From an uncultured Actinomycetes bacterium (GTDB lineage Bacteria > Actinomycetota > Geothermincolia > Geothermincolales > RBG-13-55-18): a stretch of 40,575 bases of DNA. Made by a program: the position numbers and the translations under genes. Shown here one piece after another: positions 32,426 through 40,575 of the stretch. The notes below the pieces were generated by a model. It worked only from the letters and a program-made list of their open reading frames with translations, searched no databases and was not told where the DNA came from. Position 1 is the stretch's first letter; each line of letters begins with the position of its first letter. The stretch is from the NCBI GenBank assembly GCA_937128055.1, contig CAKZMC010000053.1, forward strand, positions 1-40,575, given 5' to 3'.

Positions 32426-32450
32426 TATAATGCGGTTGGTTTATTATAAT
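32426..32450 (+). promoter_or_regulatory. Two TATAAT boxes upstream of the cysteine synthase gene
   Basis: TATAAT occurs at 32426-32431 and 32445-32450 in the only AT-rich part of the intergenic region. Neither has a clear -35. A leader of about 90 nt without a recognised riboswitch separates them from the ATG at 32544. Confidence 0.4.
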
Positions 32451-32543
32451 ATCCTCCGCCACCGGAAAAGCGGGGGCCTGCGAGACACGGAGACGACGAG
32501 CACTAAGCGGAGGCGGGACGGCAAGAAAGGTAGGCGCTCTCAC

Positions 32544-33494
32544 ATGATAACGGCCTCGAACCCTCTCGAACTCATCGGCAACACCCCCCTGGTGAAGCTG
32601 AACAAGGTGGTGCCGCGTAACCCCCGCGTGGAGATATTCGCAAAGATGGAGGGCTTCAACCCCTGCAGCTCCGTCAAGGACCGCATCGCCAAGTACATGA
32701 TCGAGGGAGCGGAGGAGCGCGGGGAGCTGGTACCGGGCAAGGTCATCGTGGAAGCCTCCAGCGGAAACACCGGCATCGGCCTGGCCATGGTGGCGGCCTT
32801 CAAGGGTTACCGCCTGAAAATAATCATGCCGGAGTCCATGAGCGTGGAGAGGCGCCGGGTCATGCAGGCTTTCGGCGCCGAAGTCATCCTCACTCCCGCC
32901 GAGGAGGGGATGAATGGCGCCATCGCCATGGCGGAGAAGATGGGAAGGGAAGCGGACCACTACCACCCTGACCAGTTCGCCAACCCCGACAACGTGCGTG
33001 CCCACTACGAGGGCACGGGCGGCGAAATTATCTCCCAGGTGGAGGAGATCGATGTCCTGGTGGCCGGCATAGGCACCGGCGGCACCATAACCGGGGTGGG
33101 CAAGAGGCTGAAGGGGGTTTATCCCGCCCTGCGCGTGGTGGGGGTGGAGCCATACCCCAAGTCCCTTATCCAGGGCCTGCGCAATCTGCAGGATTACGTC
33201 CCTCCCATCCTCGACCTCTCCCTCCTCGACGAGAAGCTCAACGTGGAGGACGGCTGCGCCTTCAACACGGTAAGGGTCCTTGCCAACATCGAGGGCCTCT
33301 TCGTGGGGATGTCGTCCGGGGCGGCCGTGCATGCCGCCCTCATGGTGGCGGAGAAGATGGACAAGGGGCGCATCGTGGTCATCCTTCCTGACCGCGGTGA
33401 CCGCTACCTGAGCACCGACTGCTTCTCCTGCGCGAACCTGGAATGCGTGTACCGGGATTTCCTGCAGTCCCTGGAGGCCAGGCAGTCGGAGTGA
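32544..33494 (+). CDS. Cysteine synthase / PLP-dependent sulfhydrylase
   Basis: A 316-residue fold-type II PLP enzyme that makes cysteine from an activated serine and sulfide. Family residues: [13 protein letters not shown] lysine in SSVKDR (K45), SSGNTG (72-77), [10 protein letters not shown] and the [10 protein letters not shown] region. The end of the core reads [11 protein letters not shown], more like the CysM branch. It is followed by a short tail with three cysteines (CFSCANLEC), which is unusual for CysK. ATG 32544 has GGTAGG 9 nt upstream. Substrate (O-acetylserine, O-phosphoserine or thiosulfate) cannot be decided. Confidence 0.9.
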
Positions 33495-33726: not shown

Positions 33727-35400
33727 ATGCCTTCCGCGACGGACAGGCTGTCCCAGCTGCTGTTGAAGAACAACGTCATCACGGAAAGGCAACTGGCCCA
33801 GGCCATGGAGCGCCAGAAGGAAACGGGAGCCAGCCTGGGCAAGGTTCTCCTGGAGATGGGCATGGTCAAGGAGAACCAGCTGGCGGAGCTCATCGCCCGC
33901 GAGCTGGGCCTGGAATACGTGGACCTGCTCGAGTTCAAGATAAACATCCAGGCGACCACCTCCATCGACGAGTCCATGGCCAGGCGCTACAGCTGTATCC
34001 CCATCGATTTCGAGGACGGCAAGCTGGTAGTGGCCATGGCCGACCCCACCAACATCTACGCCCTGGACGACATCCGCCTGAGCACCGGCTACGAGGTGAA
34101 GCCGGTGGTCAGCGCCCGGGAGGACATCCAGAGCGCCATCCAACGCTATTACCACCTGGACACCGACGTGGTGGAGGAAGCGCTCCACGGACGGGAACAG
34201 GAGGAGATGGAGGCCATAACGGGGGTGGTGGACGACACGCCCCTGGTGCGCTTCACCACCACCATGATCACCGAGGCCATCAACCGGGGAGCCAGCGACA
34301 TCCATGTCGATCCCCGGGAAAACGAGGTTCTCATCCGATACCGCATAGACGGCGTTTGCCAGGAGATAAAGCGGTTGCCCAAGAACATCCACGACGGGGT
34401 GGTCTCGCGCATCAAGATCATCTCAGACCTGAACATCGCCGAGAGGAGGGTGCCCCAGGATGGCCACTTCGGCCTCGTGCAGAACGGCAAGTCCATAGAC
34501 TTCCGTGTCGCCGTCCTCCCCACCGTCTACGGGGAGAAGGTGGTCATGCGTATCCTGGACAGGTCGAGCATCCTCCTGCGCCTGGAGGACCTGGGCTTCC
34601 TCCCCGAGGCGCTGGAGAAATACCGCCAGGCCTTCAGCAAGCCACACGGCGCCCTCCTGGTCACCGGGCCGACCGGCAGCGGGAAATCCACCTCCCTTTA
34701 CGCCACCCTCAATGTCCTCAACACGGAGCACAAGAACATCACCACCGTGGAGGACCCCGTGGAGTACCGCCTCGCGGGCATCAACCAGGTGCAGGTCAAC
34801 CCCAAGGCCGGCCTGCATTTCGCCAACGCCCTGCGCAATATCCTGCGCACCTCGCCGGACATCCTCATGGTAGGCGAGATCCGTGACCGGGAGACCGCCA
34901 AGACGGCCATAGAGGCGGCCCTCACCGGGCACCTGGTGCTCTCCACCCTGCACACCAACGACGCCCCCAGCGCGCTCCCCAGGCTCATCGAGATGGGAGT
35001 GGAGGCCTTCCTGGTCTCCTCGGCGATCAACTGCGTCATGGCCCAGAGGCTGGTGCGCAAACTGTGCCCCAACTGCAAGGTGCCCTACGAACCGGACCCG
35101 GAGGTGCTGAGAGCCCTGCAGTTCCCCGCCGAAGACCTGGAAGATCTCGTCCTCTACAAGGCCAACGAGAACGGCTGCGCCAAGTGCAGCGGCACCGGCT
35201 ACAGAGGCCGTATCGGCCTCTATGAGGTCATGCCCATGAGCGAGGAGATCAAGAAGCTCACCGTAAAGGAAGCCTCGGCCACCATGATCTTGAACCAGGC
35301 CAAGGAAGAAGGCCTCATCACCATGCGCGACGACGGCTTCACCAAGGTGAAGATGGGAATAACTTCCATCGAAGAGGTCATGCGGGTGGTGGCCGTCTAA
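33727..35400 (+). CDS. Type IV pilus / type II secretion assembly ATPase (PilB/GspE family)
   Basis: 557 residues. The N-terminal MshEN/GspE-N domain (about 1-150; LLLKNNVITERQLAQAME, LGKVLLEMG) can bind c-di-GMP in some relatives. The ATPase core has SDIHVDP, Walker A GPTGSGKST (about 314-322), the Asp box TTVEDPVEY, Walker B ILMVGEIRD and the HTNDAPSALPRL His box. A C4 zinc site (CPNC near 446 and CAKC near 484) marks it as the extension ATPase rather than PilT. ATG 33727 has GAGGAGGGG upstream. No other pilus genes lie here. The stop overlaps by 4 nt the stop of the convergent STAS gene. Confidence 0.93.
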   Translation: MPSATDRLSQLLLKNNVITERQLAQAMERQKETGASLGKVLLEMGMVKENQLAELIARELGLEYVDLLEFKINIQATTSIDESMARRYSCIPIDFEDGKLVVAMADPTNIYALDDIRLSTGYEVKPVVSAREDIQSAIQRYYHLDTDVVEEALHGREQEEMEAITGVVDDTPLVRFTTTMITEAINRGASDIHVDPRENEVLIRYRIDGVCQEIKRLPKNIHDGVVSRIKIISDLNIAERRVPQDGHFGLVQNGKSIDFRVAVLPTVYGEKVVMRILDRSSILLRLEDLGFLPEALEKYRQAFSKPHGALLVTGPTGSGKSTSLYATLNVLNTEHKNITTVEDPVEYRLAGINQVQVNPKAGLHFANALRNILRTSPDILMVGEIRDRETAKTAIEAALTGHLVLSTLHTNDAPSALPRLIEMGVEAFLVSSAINCVMAQRLVRKLCPNCKVPYEPDPEVLRALQFPAEDLEDLVLYKANENGCAKCSGTGYRGRIGLYEVMPMSEEIKKLTVKEASATMILNQAKEEGLITMRDDGFTKVKMGITSIEEVMRVVAV

Positions 35401-35735
35401 ACCGCCTGTAAGGCTTCCTCCACGGTAGGGTAAAAGGACATTATCTTCCCTATCTGCACCACATCGAAAAGATCCGCGATCATCTCGGAAGCCCGTGCGA
35501 TGACCAGCCTGCCGCCGGCTTTCTCCGCCTTCTTGAAAGCGTCAACGATCACCGAGAGGCCGCCGCTCGAGAGGTAGCTGGTGTTCCCCATGTCCAGCAC
35601 GATGCGATAAACGTTGCGCTTGAGGAGCGAATTGATGAGGGCGAAGAAGTCCTCCACGTTGGTGGAATCCACCACCCCGTCCAGGTGCACAACGGCTATT
35701 GCGCCACCTTCGCTCTCCTCTATCTCCCAGGCCAT
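35397..35735 (-). CDS. STAS-domain protein (anti-sigma-factor antagonist family)
   Basis: A 112-residue single STAS domain: AVVHLDGVVDSTNVEDF, RIVLDMGNTSYLSSGGLSVI, RLVIARASEMIADLFDVV. The segment SYLSSGGL holds the serine that anti-sigma kinases phosphorylate in SpoIIAA/RsbV proteins. No anti-sigma factor or sigma gene is adjacent, so the partner is unknown. ATG 35735 has AAGGA 8 nt upstream. It lies 19 nt after the B-box/membrane gene on the same strand and overlaps by 4 nt the convergent pilB-like gene. Confidence 0.9.
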   Translation of the reverse strand: MAWEIEESEGGAIAVVHLDGVVDSTNVEDFFALINSLLKRNVYRIVLDMGNTSYLSSGGLSVIVDAFKKAEKAGGRLVIARASEMIADLFDVVQIGKIMSFYPTVEEALQAV

Positions 35736-35754: not shown

Positions 35755-37374
35755 CTATTCGCGCAGCGCCCGGCCGAAGCGGAAGAAGACCTCCGGTATG
35801 GGCGGCATGCCGAATCCGATGACGAAGGCCATGAGCGCGGGGAGGACGAGTATCCAGATAAAGGCACCGGGGAACATGGCCTCCACGGTGTCACGCATGA
35901 TCTCGGCGCCGTTCTCCCACAAGAAGCGGAAGGAGACGAGGTCGAAGAGGATGGTCCTGAAGGCCGCGTTCTTCATGATGATGAGGAACCAGCGGAAGAA
36001 CTCCCCGATGGCCAGCGAGAAAAGGGTTACCAGTGCGGCCTGCACCGCCAGCTTGGTGCCGTGTTTCCTGCCTGCCTTCCACCAGAAAAACAGCCCGATC
36101 ACGATGCCGATGGCCACGGCATGAACGCCGTACTCCGTGTCCTTCGGCACCAGGTAGGCGTTGGGCAAGGCCCAGAGCACCGCCCCCAACAGGAGCATGA
36201 GCACGATGAAGGCCGCCGCGCGCCACCAGGAGTCCGCGATAATGGTGTGCTCCGCGGAGCGGCCCTGGGCGAGGAACGCCCAGCGCTCCGCGCGCTCCTC
36301 GCCAAGCGCCTTCCTCCGCTCCCTGCGACGCCGTTTGATCTCCGCCAGACCGGGAACCGCCATGGCACCGCCCGCCGCGAGCCCTCCATCCGCGGCAGCA
36401 GCTCCCCGCGACATCCCCGCAAGTTCCCGCTGCGGAGGGACGCCCTCCAATCCCCCCTCACCTGATTCCGGCCTTAGGAGGGTGGAGACCACGTCCTCGA
36501 GAAGCAGGTCCTCTGTGACAGGCGCTTGCGCAGGGCCCCTTCTCCCCCTGCGAGCCCCGGCCGCGCGGGGCGGCCTTACGCGAGGCGGGGGCTCCTCTAC
36601 CGCAGTCTCTGACGTCTCCCCTTCTGCCGCGGCGGCAATCTCCTCCGCGGCATCCTCCTTCTCCCTCTTCCTTCCCAGCCTGAAGCGCGGCTTCTCCTCC
36701 GCAAGCTGGCTGAAGTCCTCGTCCGGCCCCTGGGCGAGGAACGCGCTCGTCTCCCCTTCCTCCGCTTCCTCACCGATGATCTCCGGGATCTCCTCCCGCT
36801 CTTCCTCCCGGGCGGCCTCTCTCGCCTCCTCCTCGATGACCTCCAGGGCCTCTTCCCGCTCCAGCTCCTGGACTATCTCCTCCGCTTCCTCACCGATGAT
36901 CTCCGGGATCTCCTCCCGCTCTTCCTTATCTTGTTCCTCAAGAAGCGCGTCTTCCGGCTTCTTCTTGCGACCGGAGAGTATGAAACCACGGCGCAGCGGC
37001 CTCAGTCGCGGGACTTTGCGCTCCACCGCAGGATGGGCTACGTCCTTTTTCGAAGGTGCTTCTCTCGGTGGGACCCCTACGTCAAGGGGTGACGGAAGGA
37101 CCGCGGGCTCACGGGAGACGGCGGCCTGGGGCCGCGGTAGAGGTTCAGGTCCTACCTTCTCCGCTGCCTTTCCGGGCGTCTCCTCCGGTATCTCCCCCGC
37201 CGCCCTCTCCGGCTCCGGCGCGAGCTCCCTGGCGATCTCGCTCACCTTGCGCCGGTAGCATTCCGCGCAGAGGGTGGTCTGGTCCGTCTCCCGCACGCAC
37301 TCGATGCAAAACCCCGTGCCGCAATCCCGGCAGGAAGCCACCACCCGCTTGTTAGGGTGTCTATGGCAGTTCAA
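35755..37374 (-). CDS. B-box-type zinc-finger and multi-membrane (Yip1-like) protein
   Basis: 539 residues. The N terminus is a compact zinc finger with C3, H4, H6, C15, C18, C23, C26, C36, C39, of the B-box kind. Residues about 50-330 are a long acidic and Pro/Arg-rich linker with repeats (EEREEIPEIIGEEAEE occurs twice). Residues about 395-535 contain five or so membrane helices, like Yip1-domain membrane proteins (ADSWWRAAAFIVLMLLLG, FFRFGRALRE at the end). The start is TTG 37374 with GGAGG 7 nt upstream. Function unknown; co-transcribed with the STAS gene. The finger could bind a protein partner. Confidence 0.75.
   Translation of the reverse strand: MNCHRHPNKRVVASCRDCGTGFCIECVRETDQTTLCAECYRRKVSEIARELAPEPERAAGEIPEETPGKAAEKVGPEPLPRPQAAVSREPAVLPSPLDVGVPPREAPSKKDVAHPAVERKVPRLRPLRRGFILSGRKKKPEDALLEEQDKEEREEIPEIIGEEAEEIVQELEREEALEVIEEEAREAAREEEREEIPEIIGEEAEEGETSAFLAQGPDEDFSQLAEEKPRFRLGRKREKEDAAEEIAAAAEGETSETAVEEPPPRVRPPRAAGARRGRRGPAQAPVTEDLLLEDVVSTLLRPESGEGGLEGVPPQRELAGMSRGAAAADGGLAAGGAMAVPGLAEIKRRRRERRKALGEERAERWAFLAQGRSAEHTIIADSWWRAAAFIVLMLLLGAVLWALPNAYLVPKDTEYGVHAVAIGIVIGLFFWWKAGRKHGTKLAVQAALVTLFSLAIGEFFRWFLIIMKNAAFRTILFDLVSFRFLWENGAEIMRDTVEAMFPGAFIWILVLPALMAFVIGFGMPPIPEVFFRFGRALRE
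36758..36927. repeat. Internal duplication, two about 49-nt near-identical segments 120 nt apart
   Basis: The DNA for the acidic motif EEREEIPEIIGEEAEE is nearly identical at about 36758-36806 and 36878-36926. This indicates recent duplication within the linker of the B-box/membrane gene and keeps the frame (120 nt is 40 codons). Confidence 0.8.
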
Positions 37375-37504: not shown

Positions 37505-38386
37505 TCACTCCCCCAGGAACAGTCGGTTGATCTCCAACTCCACCCGCTCGACCACGGGATCCAGCTTGTTGATCTTCAATGCGCTGAAAGTTTCATAGGC
37601 AAGCGCAGGATACAGCGAGATCAGCCTATTGACTTTCGCGCTGCTCTCGCCTCCGCCCTTCTTCGGATCGGCGGCTCCGTTCTTTAACAAAGAGATGCTT
37701 TCCTGCGCCGCTTCTTTAATCGCCGTTGTCAGCTCGATAAAGAACGCCTTGTACCCGGACAGAACCTCCGGTACCTCGACCGCCTCAATCGCTTGCAGGG
37801 ATCGATCTGCTGCAGCCGTAACTTCCTCTAAGCGCCGCAGAATCTCCGCCAGCTCTTTCAACATTCCGAGGGGGATATCTATCTGCATGACTAACGCCGG
37901 TTCCGCGGCTTCCAATATGTCTTCTACCCCGTCCAGCATCAAGCGCAATTCCTCCACCGCCTCCATCGCTCCCCCGCATAATTCCCCGACCGCGGCTCCC
38001 AGCTGAGCGGTTTTTCCTTTATATGTCATCCCCCGGAGGATTTCCACGTCAGCCAAGAGCCTGTCGGACGCATCGCGGCTTCTCTGGATCCACTCCAGGG
38101 CTGTCTTCACGTAATCCTCGTTCCCTAATTCGATATTCTCGAGCGAACCGGTAAAGGCGTCACATGCATCGAGGTCGCTGACGAAGACGCGCACGGCTTT
38201 GTCTATCTCATCCAGAGCGGTGACGGAACCCCCACACCCGGCGAAAGCGCAAGACGCCATGGCAAGGCATGTAAGAACGGACGCTAACCGGCAAGCAGCC
38301 GGGCGTTTGTGTAGCCGAGGGCTTGCGCTATTCTTCCTGTTTTCGCTCACAGATCCCTTTATCATAACCGGTGTCACTCTCTGCAT
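37505..38386 (-). CDS. Helical lipoprotein of unknown function
   Basis: 293 residues. The signal region ends at a good lipobox (CAFAGC, then GG), so it is predicted to be lipid-anchored. The remaining 240 residues are almost all helical with regularly spaced leucines and acidic residues (LDEIDKAVRVFVSDLDA, LRRLEEVTAAADRSLQAIEAV). They may form a bundle or coiled coil. No family is recognised. I chose ATG 38386 (GAGGAG 3 nt upstream); GTG 38350, preceded by AAAGGGA, would give a more usual signal peptide length and is nearly as likely. Confidence 0.65.
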   Translation of the reverse strand: MQRVTPVMIKGSVSENRKNSASPRLHKRPAACRLASVLTCLAMASCAFAGCGGSVTALDEIDKAVRVFVSDLDACDAFTGSLENIELGNEDYVKTALEWIQRSRDASDRLLADVEILRGMTYKGKTAQLGAAVGELCGGAMEAVEELRLMLDGVEDILEAAEPALVMQIDIPLGMLKELAEILRRLEEVTAAADRSLQAIEAVEVPEVLSGYKAFFIELTTAIKEAAQESISLLKNGAADPKKGGGESSAKVNRLISLYPALAYETFSALKINKLDPVVERVELEINRLFLGE

Positions 38387-38631
38387 GTTCTCCTCATCCA
38401 ACGGAACACCGACATCTATAATGGTCGGCATTTATAAGGTTGGGCTTGCTACCGGATACTCCCTTATCCCCCCGAGGGGTTCCTTCAAGCAGCTCAGAAA
38501 GTATCTTCATACGATCTACGACACTCAACCTGCAGCTCTCATTTCCGAAAACAAGAGGGAATGTTCCCTTTGAAATCCCTGTAGTGCATCCTCGGTAGCG
38601 ACCCCGCTGGTGATATCACCCACTGAGTGCC

Positions 38632-38750: not shown

Positions 38751-38781
38751 CAGGTCTTCCCCCACCTTGGGGGAAGACCTG
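38751..38781. terminator. Perfect 13-bp hairpin after the repeat-protein gene
   Basis: CAGGTCTTCCCCC (38751-38763) and GGGGGAAGACCTG (38769-38781) pair perfectly around a 5-nt loop, 3 nt beyond the minus-strand stop codon. There is no T-run, so it may protect the mRNA 3' end or act as a weak terminator. Confidence 0.6.
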
Positions 38782-38784
38782 CTG

Positions 38785-40575
38785 CTACGGGTTGGCGCGC
38801 GGTGACGGGAAGGTCCAGTCCCCGCCGTTCGCATCCCAGTAGAACCCCTCGATCTTGACCTCGACATTGCTGAGATCTAAGATATTCAGTCTGCTGTTCA
38901 TCTGCAGCACCAGCTGATCCAACAGAGTAATAGGGGCAGAGTCATTGTTGTTGTCCACCCCGGTGGCGTTGAGTGCGTTCACCAGCGCTTGGCCGCGGGA
39001 ACTGTAGGTGGGGCCTCCCAGGTTGATGATGAGGTTGGTGAGGAAGCTCTGCCCGTTGGCCGACGCCAGCGCCCCCGCGATCACGTTGGTGTCCAGTGCT
39101 CCCAGCAGGTTCTGCAGGAAGGTGCCGTTGGCGTTTACGGCACCGGCGATCACGGAGGCGTTGAGGGCACCGATGAGGTTGGTGAGGAAGGTGCCGTTGG
39201 CGTTGACGGCAGCGGCTACCACGCTGGGGTTGAGGGCACCGATGAGGTTGGTGAGGAAGGTGCCGTTGGCATTGATGGCCGCCGCCAGCGTGCCGGCGTT
39301 GAGGGAACTAATGACGTTGGTGAGGAAGATCTGGTTGTTGTTGACGATATAGGCCACCTGCGATGCGTTCAGCCTCGATACCAGAGTGGTAAGCCAGTCC
39401 CTCACGCCGGTGGAGTTGAGCACGTTGGCCACCACCTGGCTGTCGAGGCCGGTGATCAGGCTGCTCACGAATGCCTGGTTGGCGTTGATAGCGTTGGCCA
39501 GCACCGTGGGCGAGAGGTTGGTCACCAGGCCGGTCACGAAGACCTGGTTGTTGTTGACCGCACTGGCGATCACCGCCGGGTCGAGGTAGCCCACAAGGTT
39601 CCGCAGGAAGGTGCCGTTGGCGTTGATGGCGTTGGCCAGGACCTGCGGATTGAGTGCCCCGATGAGGTTGGTGACGAAGGCCTGGTTGGCGTTGAGGGCC
39701 GCCGCCACCACGCTGGGGTTAAGGGCCCCCATCAGGTTGGTGAGGAAGGTGCCGTTGGCGTTGATGGCGTTGGCCAGCACCGTGGGATTCAGCTTACCGA
39801 GGAGCTGGGTGAGGAAGGTGCCGTTGGCGTTGATGGCGTTGGCCAGCACCGTGGTGTCCAGGTTATTTACCAGGCCGGAGACGAAAGCCTCGTTGGCGTT
39901 GACGGCGGCGGCGATGACCGAGGGGTCGAGGGCGCCGATGAGGTCAGCCATCCAGCTTCCGTTATTGTTCACCACGTAAGCTATCCCGTTCTCGTCGACC
40001 TGGGGCAGCAGCGCCGTCAGGAAATCGCGCGTATTGTCGCTGTTCACGATGCCCGCGATGTCGGCGGCGTTGAGCCCCGGGATGATGGTGTCCGTCAACC
40101 ATGTCGACAGCCCGCTCACCATGCTGTTGACGCTCGCGGAGGTGACATTGGTCACCACCGAGTTGAGCCAGCTCACGTTGTTGTTGACGATGGAGGCGAC
40201 GTTGGGCGCGCTGAGCTGGGGCAGGAGGGCGTTGAGGAACGCCATCGTCTGCGGGGCGTTCGCCAGGTTGGCGATGGAGGCCAGGGCGTTTATGCGCAGG
40301 TCATCCATGAGGGTGGCCCACCATGCCGGATCGAGGTTGTTGACGATGTCCACCACCATGCCCGTGTCGAGGTTGGATACGAGGTCTCCCACCCATGCCC
40401 CGTTGTTGTTCACTATGCCGGCCAGGATGGCGGGGTCGAGGTAGCCGATGAGCGCGTCCACGAAGGAGGTGAACTCGCCCGAGTTGGCGATGTTGCCTAT
40501 CACCTGCAGGGTGGTGGCGTTGTTGAGGTCGGTGAAGAGCTGGGCCGTCCAGGCGGGATCGAGGTTGTTGACGAT
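38785..40575 (-). CDS. Very repetitive protein of 23-residue units, C-terminal part (gene continues beyond window)
   Basis: 596 residues are visible, open to the right edge with no start codon needed in the window. From about 39100 to 39935 the protein is mostly a run of 23-residue units, with consensus L-N/D-P-x-V-hydrophobic-A-x-A-hydrophobic-N-A-N-G-T-F-L-T-N-L-hydrophobic-G-A; a few units have 25. More diverged units continue to the edge. The last 90 residues are non-repetitive and end in VEVKIEGFYWDANGG and DWTFPSP. The pattern suggests two short helices per unit and a solenoid, rich in Asn, with no Cys. Surface or secreted location is likely but the N terminus is not seen. No known repeat family is recognised. 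Confidence 0.85.
   Translation of the reverse strand: MVNNLDPAWTAQLFTDLNNATTLQVIGNIANSGEFTSFVDALIGYLDPAILAGIVNNNGAWVGDLVSNLDTGMVVDIVNNLDPAWWATLMDDLRINALASIANLANAPQTMAFLNALLPQLSAPNVASIVNNNVSWLNSVVTNVTSASVNSMVSGLSTWLTDTIIPGLNAADIAGIVNSDNTRDFLTALLPQVDENGIAYVVNNNGSWMADLIGALDPSVIAAAVNANEAFVSGLVNNLDTTVLANAINANGTFLTQLLGKLNPTVLANAINANGTFLTNLMGALNPSVVAAALNANQAFVTNLIGALNPQVLANAINANGTFLRNLVGYLDPAVIASAVNNNQVFVTGLVTNLSPTVLANAINANQAFVSSLITGLDSQVVANVLNSTGVRDWLTTLVSRLNASQVAYIVNNNQIFLTNVISSLNAGTLAAAINANGTFLTNLIGALNPSVVAAAVNANGTFLTNLIGALNASVIAGAVNANGTFLQNLLGALDTNVIAGALASANGQSFLTNLIINLGGPTYSSRGQALVNALNATGVDNNNDSAPITLLDQLVLQMNSRLNILDLSNVEVKIEGFYWDANGGDWTFPSPRANP
39100..39935. repeat. Tandem 69-bp coding repeats
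   Basis: DNA of the repeat-protein gene repeats with a 69-bp period; the string AGGTGCCGTTGGCGTT recurs with few changes in many units, so DNA identity is higher than needed for protein similarity alone. This points to recent duplication or recombination between units. Confidence 0.85.

Follow-up and report, generated by a model that had tools for sequence, protein, structure and literature searches.

Proteins built from short helical repeats fall into several described families. HEAT, ARM and importin repeats have units longer than 23 residues, the leucine-rich variant (LRV, PF01816) has a short helical unit of 24–26 positions made of a helix and a 3-10 helix, and the DUF4116 unit (PF13475) is similar in length to the 23-residue unit studied here. 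DUF4116 repeats are predicted to form an alpha-solenoid (PMC8078820). Another relevant system is sigma-BldN of Streptomyces, which turns on surface sheath proteins (PMC4255298) and is seen in structure 6dxo bound to the membrane-anchored RsbN (PMC8103513). We analyzed a 40,575-nucleotide stretch of DNA (the window) that makes up the whole of contig C53 in genome G000, from Candidatus Geothermincolia, which has been named as a basal actinobacterial class (PMC10746217).

The gene of interest is a minus-strand ORF of 596 open codons (38788–40575, stop at 38785–38787). Its 5' end is open, and the initial annotation had called the gene incomplete at the window edge; as the window is a whole contig, it is the contig end that cuts the gene. 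The ORF carries a 23-residue (69-bp) tandem repeat with the consensus LDPSVLAGAVNANGxFVTxLVGA (LDPSVLAGAVNANGAFVTDLVGA is the consensus from 30 units of the ORF). The lag-23 BLOSUM62 self-similarity of the protein was 0.94 per residue against a best value of −0.26 among 200 shuffles, with harmonics at lags 46 and 69, and TRF detected the 69-bp period at 39116–39328 and 39605–39907, bearing out the unit length and DNA period noted at first. Asn13 is found in 30/30 units, Leu1 in 29/30, Ala7 in 28/30 and Asn11 in 26/30, counts that are somewhat favoured by the unit-collecting pattern, which admits few residues at some of the scored positions. The Asn-Ala-Asn-Gly core reported earlier is present, but it is strongest in the last ~12 units, the others being more divergent. 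Two further early observations were confirmed: the product has no cysteine, and its last ~79 residues (approximately 518–596) are nonrepetitive; this tail is conserved in the orthologs. The features of the locus are collected in Table 1.

Table 1. Features of the solenoid locus in the window
Feature	Position	Strand	Basis
3' part of solenoid gene D, 596 codons and stop	38785..40575	-	ORF; synteny with complete orthologs L040/L057 and L039
Array of 23-residue (69-bp) helix-pair units, ~residues 1–517	39025..40575	-	TRF, self-similarity, unit alignment
Core, ~nine regular units	39370..39990	-	Model pLDDT 92.0, pTM 0.85
Nonrepetitive C-terminal tail, QALVNALNATGVD...KIEGFYWDANGGDW	38788..39024	-	Kept in D orthologs; low model confidence
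Hairpin, 13–14-bp stem, just 3' of stop	38751..38781	-	Folding energy −38.3 kcal/mol, z −5.7
Putative lipoprotein, 308 aa, next gene downstream	37505..38431	-	287–303-aa gene at same spot in orthologous loci
B-box-like zinc-ribbon membrane protein, 539 aa	35755..37374	-	zf-B_box below cut-off
STAS-like (anti-anti-sigma type) protein	35397..35735	-	Family by eye, no profile; also beside complete orthologs

AlphaFold2 predicted an all-helical chain for the 596-residue part, with pLDDT of 80–89 at approximately residues 220–350 and below 50 in the tail. For the core alone (residues 196–402, nine sequences), pLDDT rose to 92.0 and pTM was 0.85 over approximately nine units; consecutive units are thus predicted to be ordered, the opposite of the disorder that would have spoken against a solenoid. 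The unit in the core model consists of a 10-residue helix (PSVLAGAVNA), the single residue Asn13, a second 10-residue helix, and the two residues Leu1 and Asp/Asn2. The Asn-Ala-Asn-Gly core is thus predicted to form the tight turn between the helices of the unit, and Asp/Asn2 and Asn13, each placed just before a helix, may act as N-caps. The model shows tandem two-helix units stacked one way, the general definition of an alpha-solenoid, and assignment of the protein to this class by predicted fold is well supported. The overall rod shape and length are uncertain, as model confidence is low for the tail and for a large part of the full-length chain.

Searches for a known repeat family gave no confident match in sequence or fold. 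Foldseek against the PDB with the full model returned generic importin/HEAT/ARM solenoids alone, at TM ≤ 0.30, and with the confident core no match at E ≤ 0.001, TM being ≤ 0.41 among the best 50 of 1038 matches. The window protein had no convincing family in Pfam, NCBIfam, PHROGs or PDB sequences. No Pfam match to HEAT/ARM exceeded the cut-off, TPR and Sel1 (34–40-residue units) gave no profile match, LRV had zero profile matches in the window gene, and DUF4116 had zero matches in genome G000 at E ≤ 1. Scattered weak matches to HTH_69, XPC-binding and XopAD were rejected, as their folds differ and they track the repeat pattern. The proposal of a short solenoid distinct from TPR, HEAT and Sel1 is therefore supported by the 23-residue unit, the regular helix-pair fold of the model and the lack of a convincing known family.

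The full gene was sought beyond the window. Contig C76 of the same genome has a minus-strand repeat ORF at 1–2332 (777 aa) that starts MLINRSFQKIINLLVVIMVVSLIAVGGVLALP, with a single hydrophobic (transmembrane) helix followed by ~27 units; the motif P-x-R-x-P-x-G-P-x-x-G-K is conserved after this helix. Genome G013 (L040/L057) holds both ends in one 1261-aa gene with 37 units, and G004 has a complete ortholog of 1506–1532 aa, depending on the start chosen, with 45 units. Upstream of the G013 ortholog are counterparts of the C76 genes for a lipoprotein (the C76 copy matches LppX_LprAFG), a single-helix protein and a regulator-like gene; downstream are those of the window's putative lipoprotein, B-box-like and STAS-like genes, followed by the genes at 33727–35397 and 32430–33491, correspondence being judged by order and start sequences. 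Given this synteny and the complete orthologs with both ends, C76 and C53 very probably hold the two halves of one gene, with no read across the gap. The best explanation is that the solenoid protein of G000 is a single-anchor membrane protein of at least 1373 aa.

The 308-aa putative lipoprotein belongs to no Pfam family. The B-box-like gene adjoins solenoid genes in the window's order and in deep-branching families, and contains a 60-bp tandem repeat (36758–36926) coding for a Glu-rich stretch. The hairpin after the stop, listed earlier as a trait of the gene, is real but not special: several orthologs have unrelated hairpins at the corresponding place, and it is thus probably an ordinary transcription terminator. 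It has no U-tract and is single copy in G000, and was rejected as a repeated element.

Repeat number varies between orthologs, as had been suggested. The orthologs of two same-genus genomes differ by 69- and 76-residue gaps, other gaps lying at contig ends, and those of G013 and G004 by gaps of 138 and 76 residues plus a few short ones. The differences are thus whole multi-unit blocks, 69 residues being three units and 138 six; the 76-residue block is longer than three units and fits a 228-bp DNA repeat of G004. In the DNA, recently copied blocks of 207, 216 and 228 bp match at 92–99%, and G013 has, besides its 69-bp arrays, just an older 216-bp pair at 79%. Exact unit counts could be distorted by collapsed repeats in metagenome-assembled genomes (MAGs).

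Of the 31 genomes of Geothermincolia (Actinomycetota), 30 matched the N-terminal model, among them 19 of 19 good ones; the sole genome with no match is 62% complete. Matches to the C-terminal alignment came from 25 genomes, each of them in Geothermincolia, and from none of the 271 other genomes of the Actinomycetota sample. Viral, plasmid and phage collections held no family match. A contig search with the single window protein gave no matches; querying with the aligned orthologs instead recovered eight Actinomycetota loci. Five of these carry the titles Ca. Solincola or Ca. Geothermincola, genera that we take to belong to Ca. Geothermincolia, and the remaining three come from Actinomycetota MAGs. 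By these sequence searches, the family is near-universal in Geothermincolia and was not detected in any other member of the phylum sample; class restriction is claimed for that sample, phyla beyond Actinomycetota being covered by a motif-limited contig scan alone.

Most well-assembled genomes have three adjacent solenoid genes, each with an anchor and 14–30 units. In a tree built on approximately 200 N-terminal residues, seven clades track gene position and taxonomic group, the clade of the window gene (D) having support of 100/99, and the clades by cassette position are inherited vertically across genera. All that the G000 assembly retains of the cassette is a C-terminal stretch of 35 aa at the extreme end of contig C191, which is what repeat-induced assembly breaks would produce. 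Two cassettes per genome are found in G002 (L133, L134) and G012 (L135, L136), suggesting cassette duplication. The family f1 cassette is preceded by an S8 subtilase with DUF5719 (L041:14900–17797 and L052:12880–15774), the former identified by Pfam and mycosin-like NCBIfam matches and the latter judged similar by its ends. Genomes of the family also contain anchorless short relatives of 133 to ~340 aa; those at L008:6574–6975 (G000:C194) and L054:4736–5737 have more charged residues.

In families f4–f7, an ECF sigma factor gene is found directly upstream of the first paralog (A), which is distinct from the window gene. Examples of the sigma-BldN-like gene before the cassette are L042:12127–12702, L120:330–884 and similar loci. 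The best NCBIfam model for this sigma is the BldN family TIGR02952 (170.8 bits, below the 206.45 cut-off) and its closest solved relative is 6dxo (E 2.1e-33). In the same families, paralog A has a polar N-terminal extension of ~75–110 residues ahead of the anchor, present at every locus where both the sigma gene and an intact A start were read. In f1–f3, the sigma is absent except for a distant 157.7-bit match in one genome, and the complete first paralogs have no extension. The extension, which had no match in Pfam, NCBIfam or PDB, is a candidate anti-sigma domain. Its co-occurrence with the sigma gene is probably one evolutionary change and is thus suggestive, not statistical proof.

We interpret the single-anchor solenoid as an envelope rod that is exposed at the cell surface, is adjustable in length and serves as a scaffold or spacer, with a probability of roughly 0.6. 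The repeat, the anchor, the predicted fold, vertical inheritance and block-wise length change are computational observations, and anchor and fold are well supported. One N-terminal helix would fix the protein in the membrane, with the unit stack beginning directly after it. In each unit, Asp/Asn-Pro would cap a first helix of 10 residues, and a single Asn would form the turn and cap the second helix, also of 10 residues; a stack of ~37–45 units, as in the complete orthologs, would then give a long, weakly charged rod ending in the small nonrepetitive tail. The rod most likely lies outside the cytoplasmic membrane, and probably provides structure or spacing in the envelope, where it would bind hypothetical partners along its length; that length would be set by duplication and loss of whole blocks of at least three units. 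We infer the outward orientation from the N-terminal anchor, the polar extension of A beside an ECF sigma, which fits an N-inside, solenoid-outside topology, and the low-charge, Cys-poor composition of the anchored solenoids (K+R 3.9%, Cys 0.07%). Against this reading, the charges flanking the N-terminal helix are similar on both sides, and the paralog linked to the sigma is A, not D. The anchor is compatible with the surface location proposed in the initial annotation.

The same features would suit a true adhesin, in which the solenoid or tail would attach to other cells, to minerals or to some different surface, and duplicated blocks would change how far it reaches or how it is presented: anchor, long repeats and block-wise length change are frequent in surface adhesins. 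We consider this unlikely, as the family is nearly universal and vertically inherited in its class whereas adhesins are more often patchy, the C-terminal 12 units are conserved in one-to-one register, and profile searches revealed no known adhesion domain. It is somewhat less likely that the solenoids are outer sensors of sigma-BldN-like ECF control, with A acting as anti-sigma factor and the paralogs B, C and D as co-receptors or targets. A dedicated sigma directly upstream of A and the extension on A at every such locus read, the resemblance of the sigma to sigma-BldN with membrane-anchored RsbN (6dxo; PMC8103513) and the STAS-like gene near D point to signalling. Against it, the extension has no sequence match to RsbN in 6dxo, and sigma and extension are both missing in the window's own order, yet all solenoids are kept there and are therefore useful without the sigma. 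More broadly, but still tentatively, the class may construct part of its envelope out of private, membrane-anchored solenoids with unusually short units, whose ancestral cassette was under a sigma-BldN-like factor via a fused anti-sigma domain, feeding envelope assembly back to transcription, with the control lost and a fourth, longer solenoid present in the window's order.

As to origin, the family could be a strongly diverged member of the short helix-pair superhelix type of MgtE_N and FliG, which is the closest lead on family membership and about as improbable as the sensor role. The window gene matched MgtE_N (PF03448) below the cut-off, the longest ortholog cleared it solely by adding up weak stretches (37.4 bits), 5 of 15 family members were matched, and four FliG structures appeared among weak profile matches (best E 0.005). 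No single stretch exceeded the threshold, however, hhalign against G000's own MgtE_N domains was not significant (the profiles being thin), and neither MgtE nor FliG was among the best 50 of 1038 PDB fold matches to the core. Less probable still is a solenoid facing the cytoplasm as a membrane-tethered intracellular scaffold. Most alpha-solenoids are intracellular and the same genomes hold the anchorless short relatives, but these differ in composition from the anchored arrays, an anchor after a short N-terminus normally inserts N-inside, and the extension of A must be cytosolic if it is meant to reach the sigma. An artefact, either a repeat made by assembly or low-complexity disorder, is very improbable: contig ends interrupt the gene in most genomes, but it is intact, at differing lengths, in independent assemblies and its core model is ordered with high confidence.

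The predicted unit of 23 residues appears to be among the shortest helix-pair units in alpha-solenoids, with no close solved relative, and such natural and very regular units are attractive for protein design. The family marks one class within the sampled phylum, and the link to a sigma-BldN relative offers a testable case for cell-surface regulation in a little-known lineage.

Compared with known systems, the protein shares the general alpha-solenoid topology of HEAT, ARM and importin proteins, the top Foldseek matches of the full model. It resembles LRV in its short helical unit, but both elements of the window model are full 10-residue alpha helices. A viral structure library returned giant-virus solenoids alone, at low TM; these include viral DUF4116 proteins, a fold similarity of TM ≤ 0.13. 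With MgtE_N and FliG (PF03448, PF01706) the family shares short paired helices and weak sequence matches, and the unit of G000's own MgtE is ~24 residues (by eye), near the 23 of the solenoid; MgtE has few units and is intracellular, whereas the solenoid family has 14–45 near-regular units after a membrane anchor. The sigma-BldN/RsbN system of Streptomyces likewise combines a related ECF sigma with an adjacent single-anchor protein that has a domain before its anchor; in Geothermincolia, this pairing is found in f4–f7 alone, on paralog A, and the outer part is a large solenoid.
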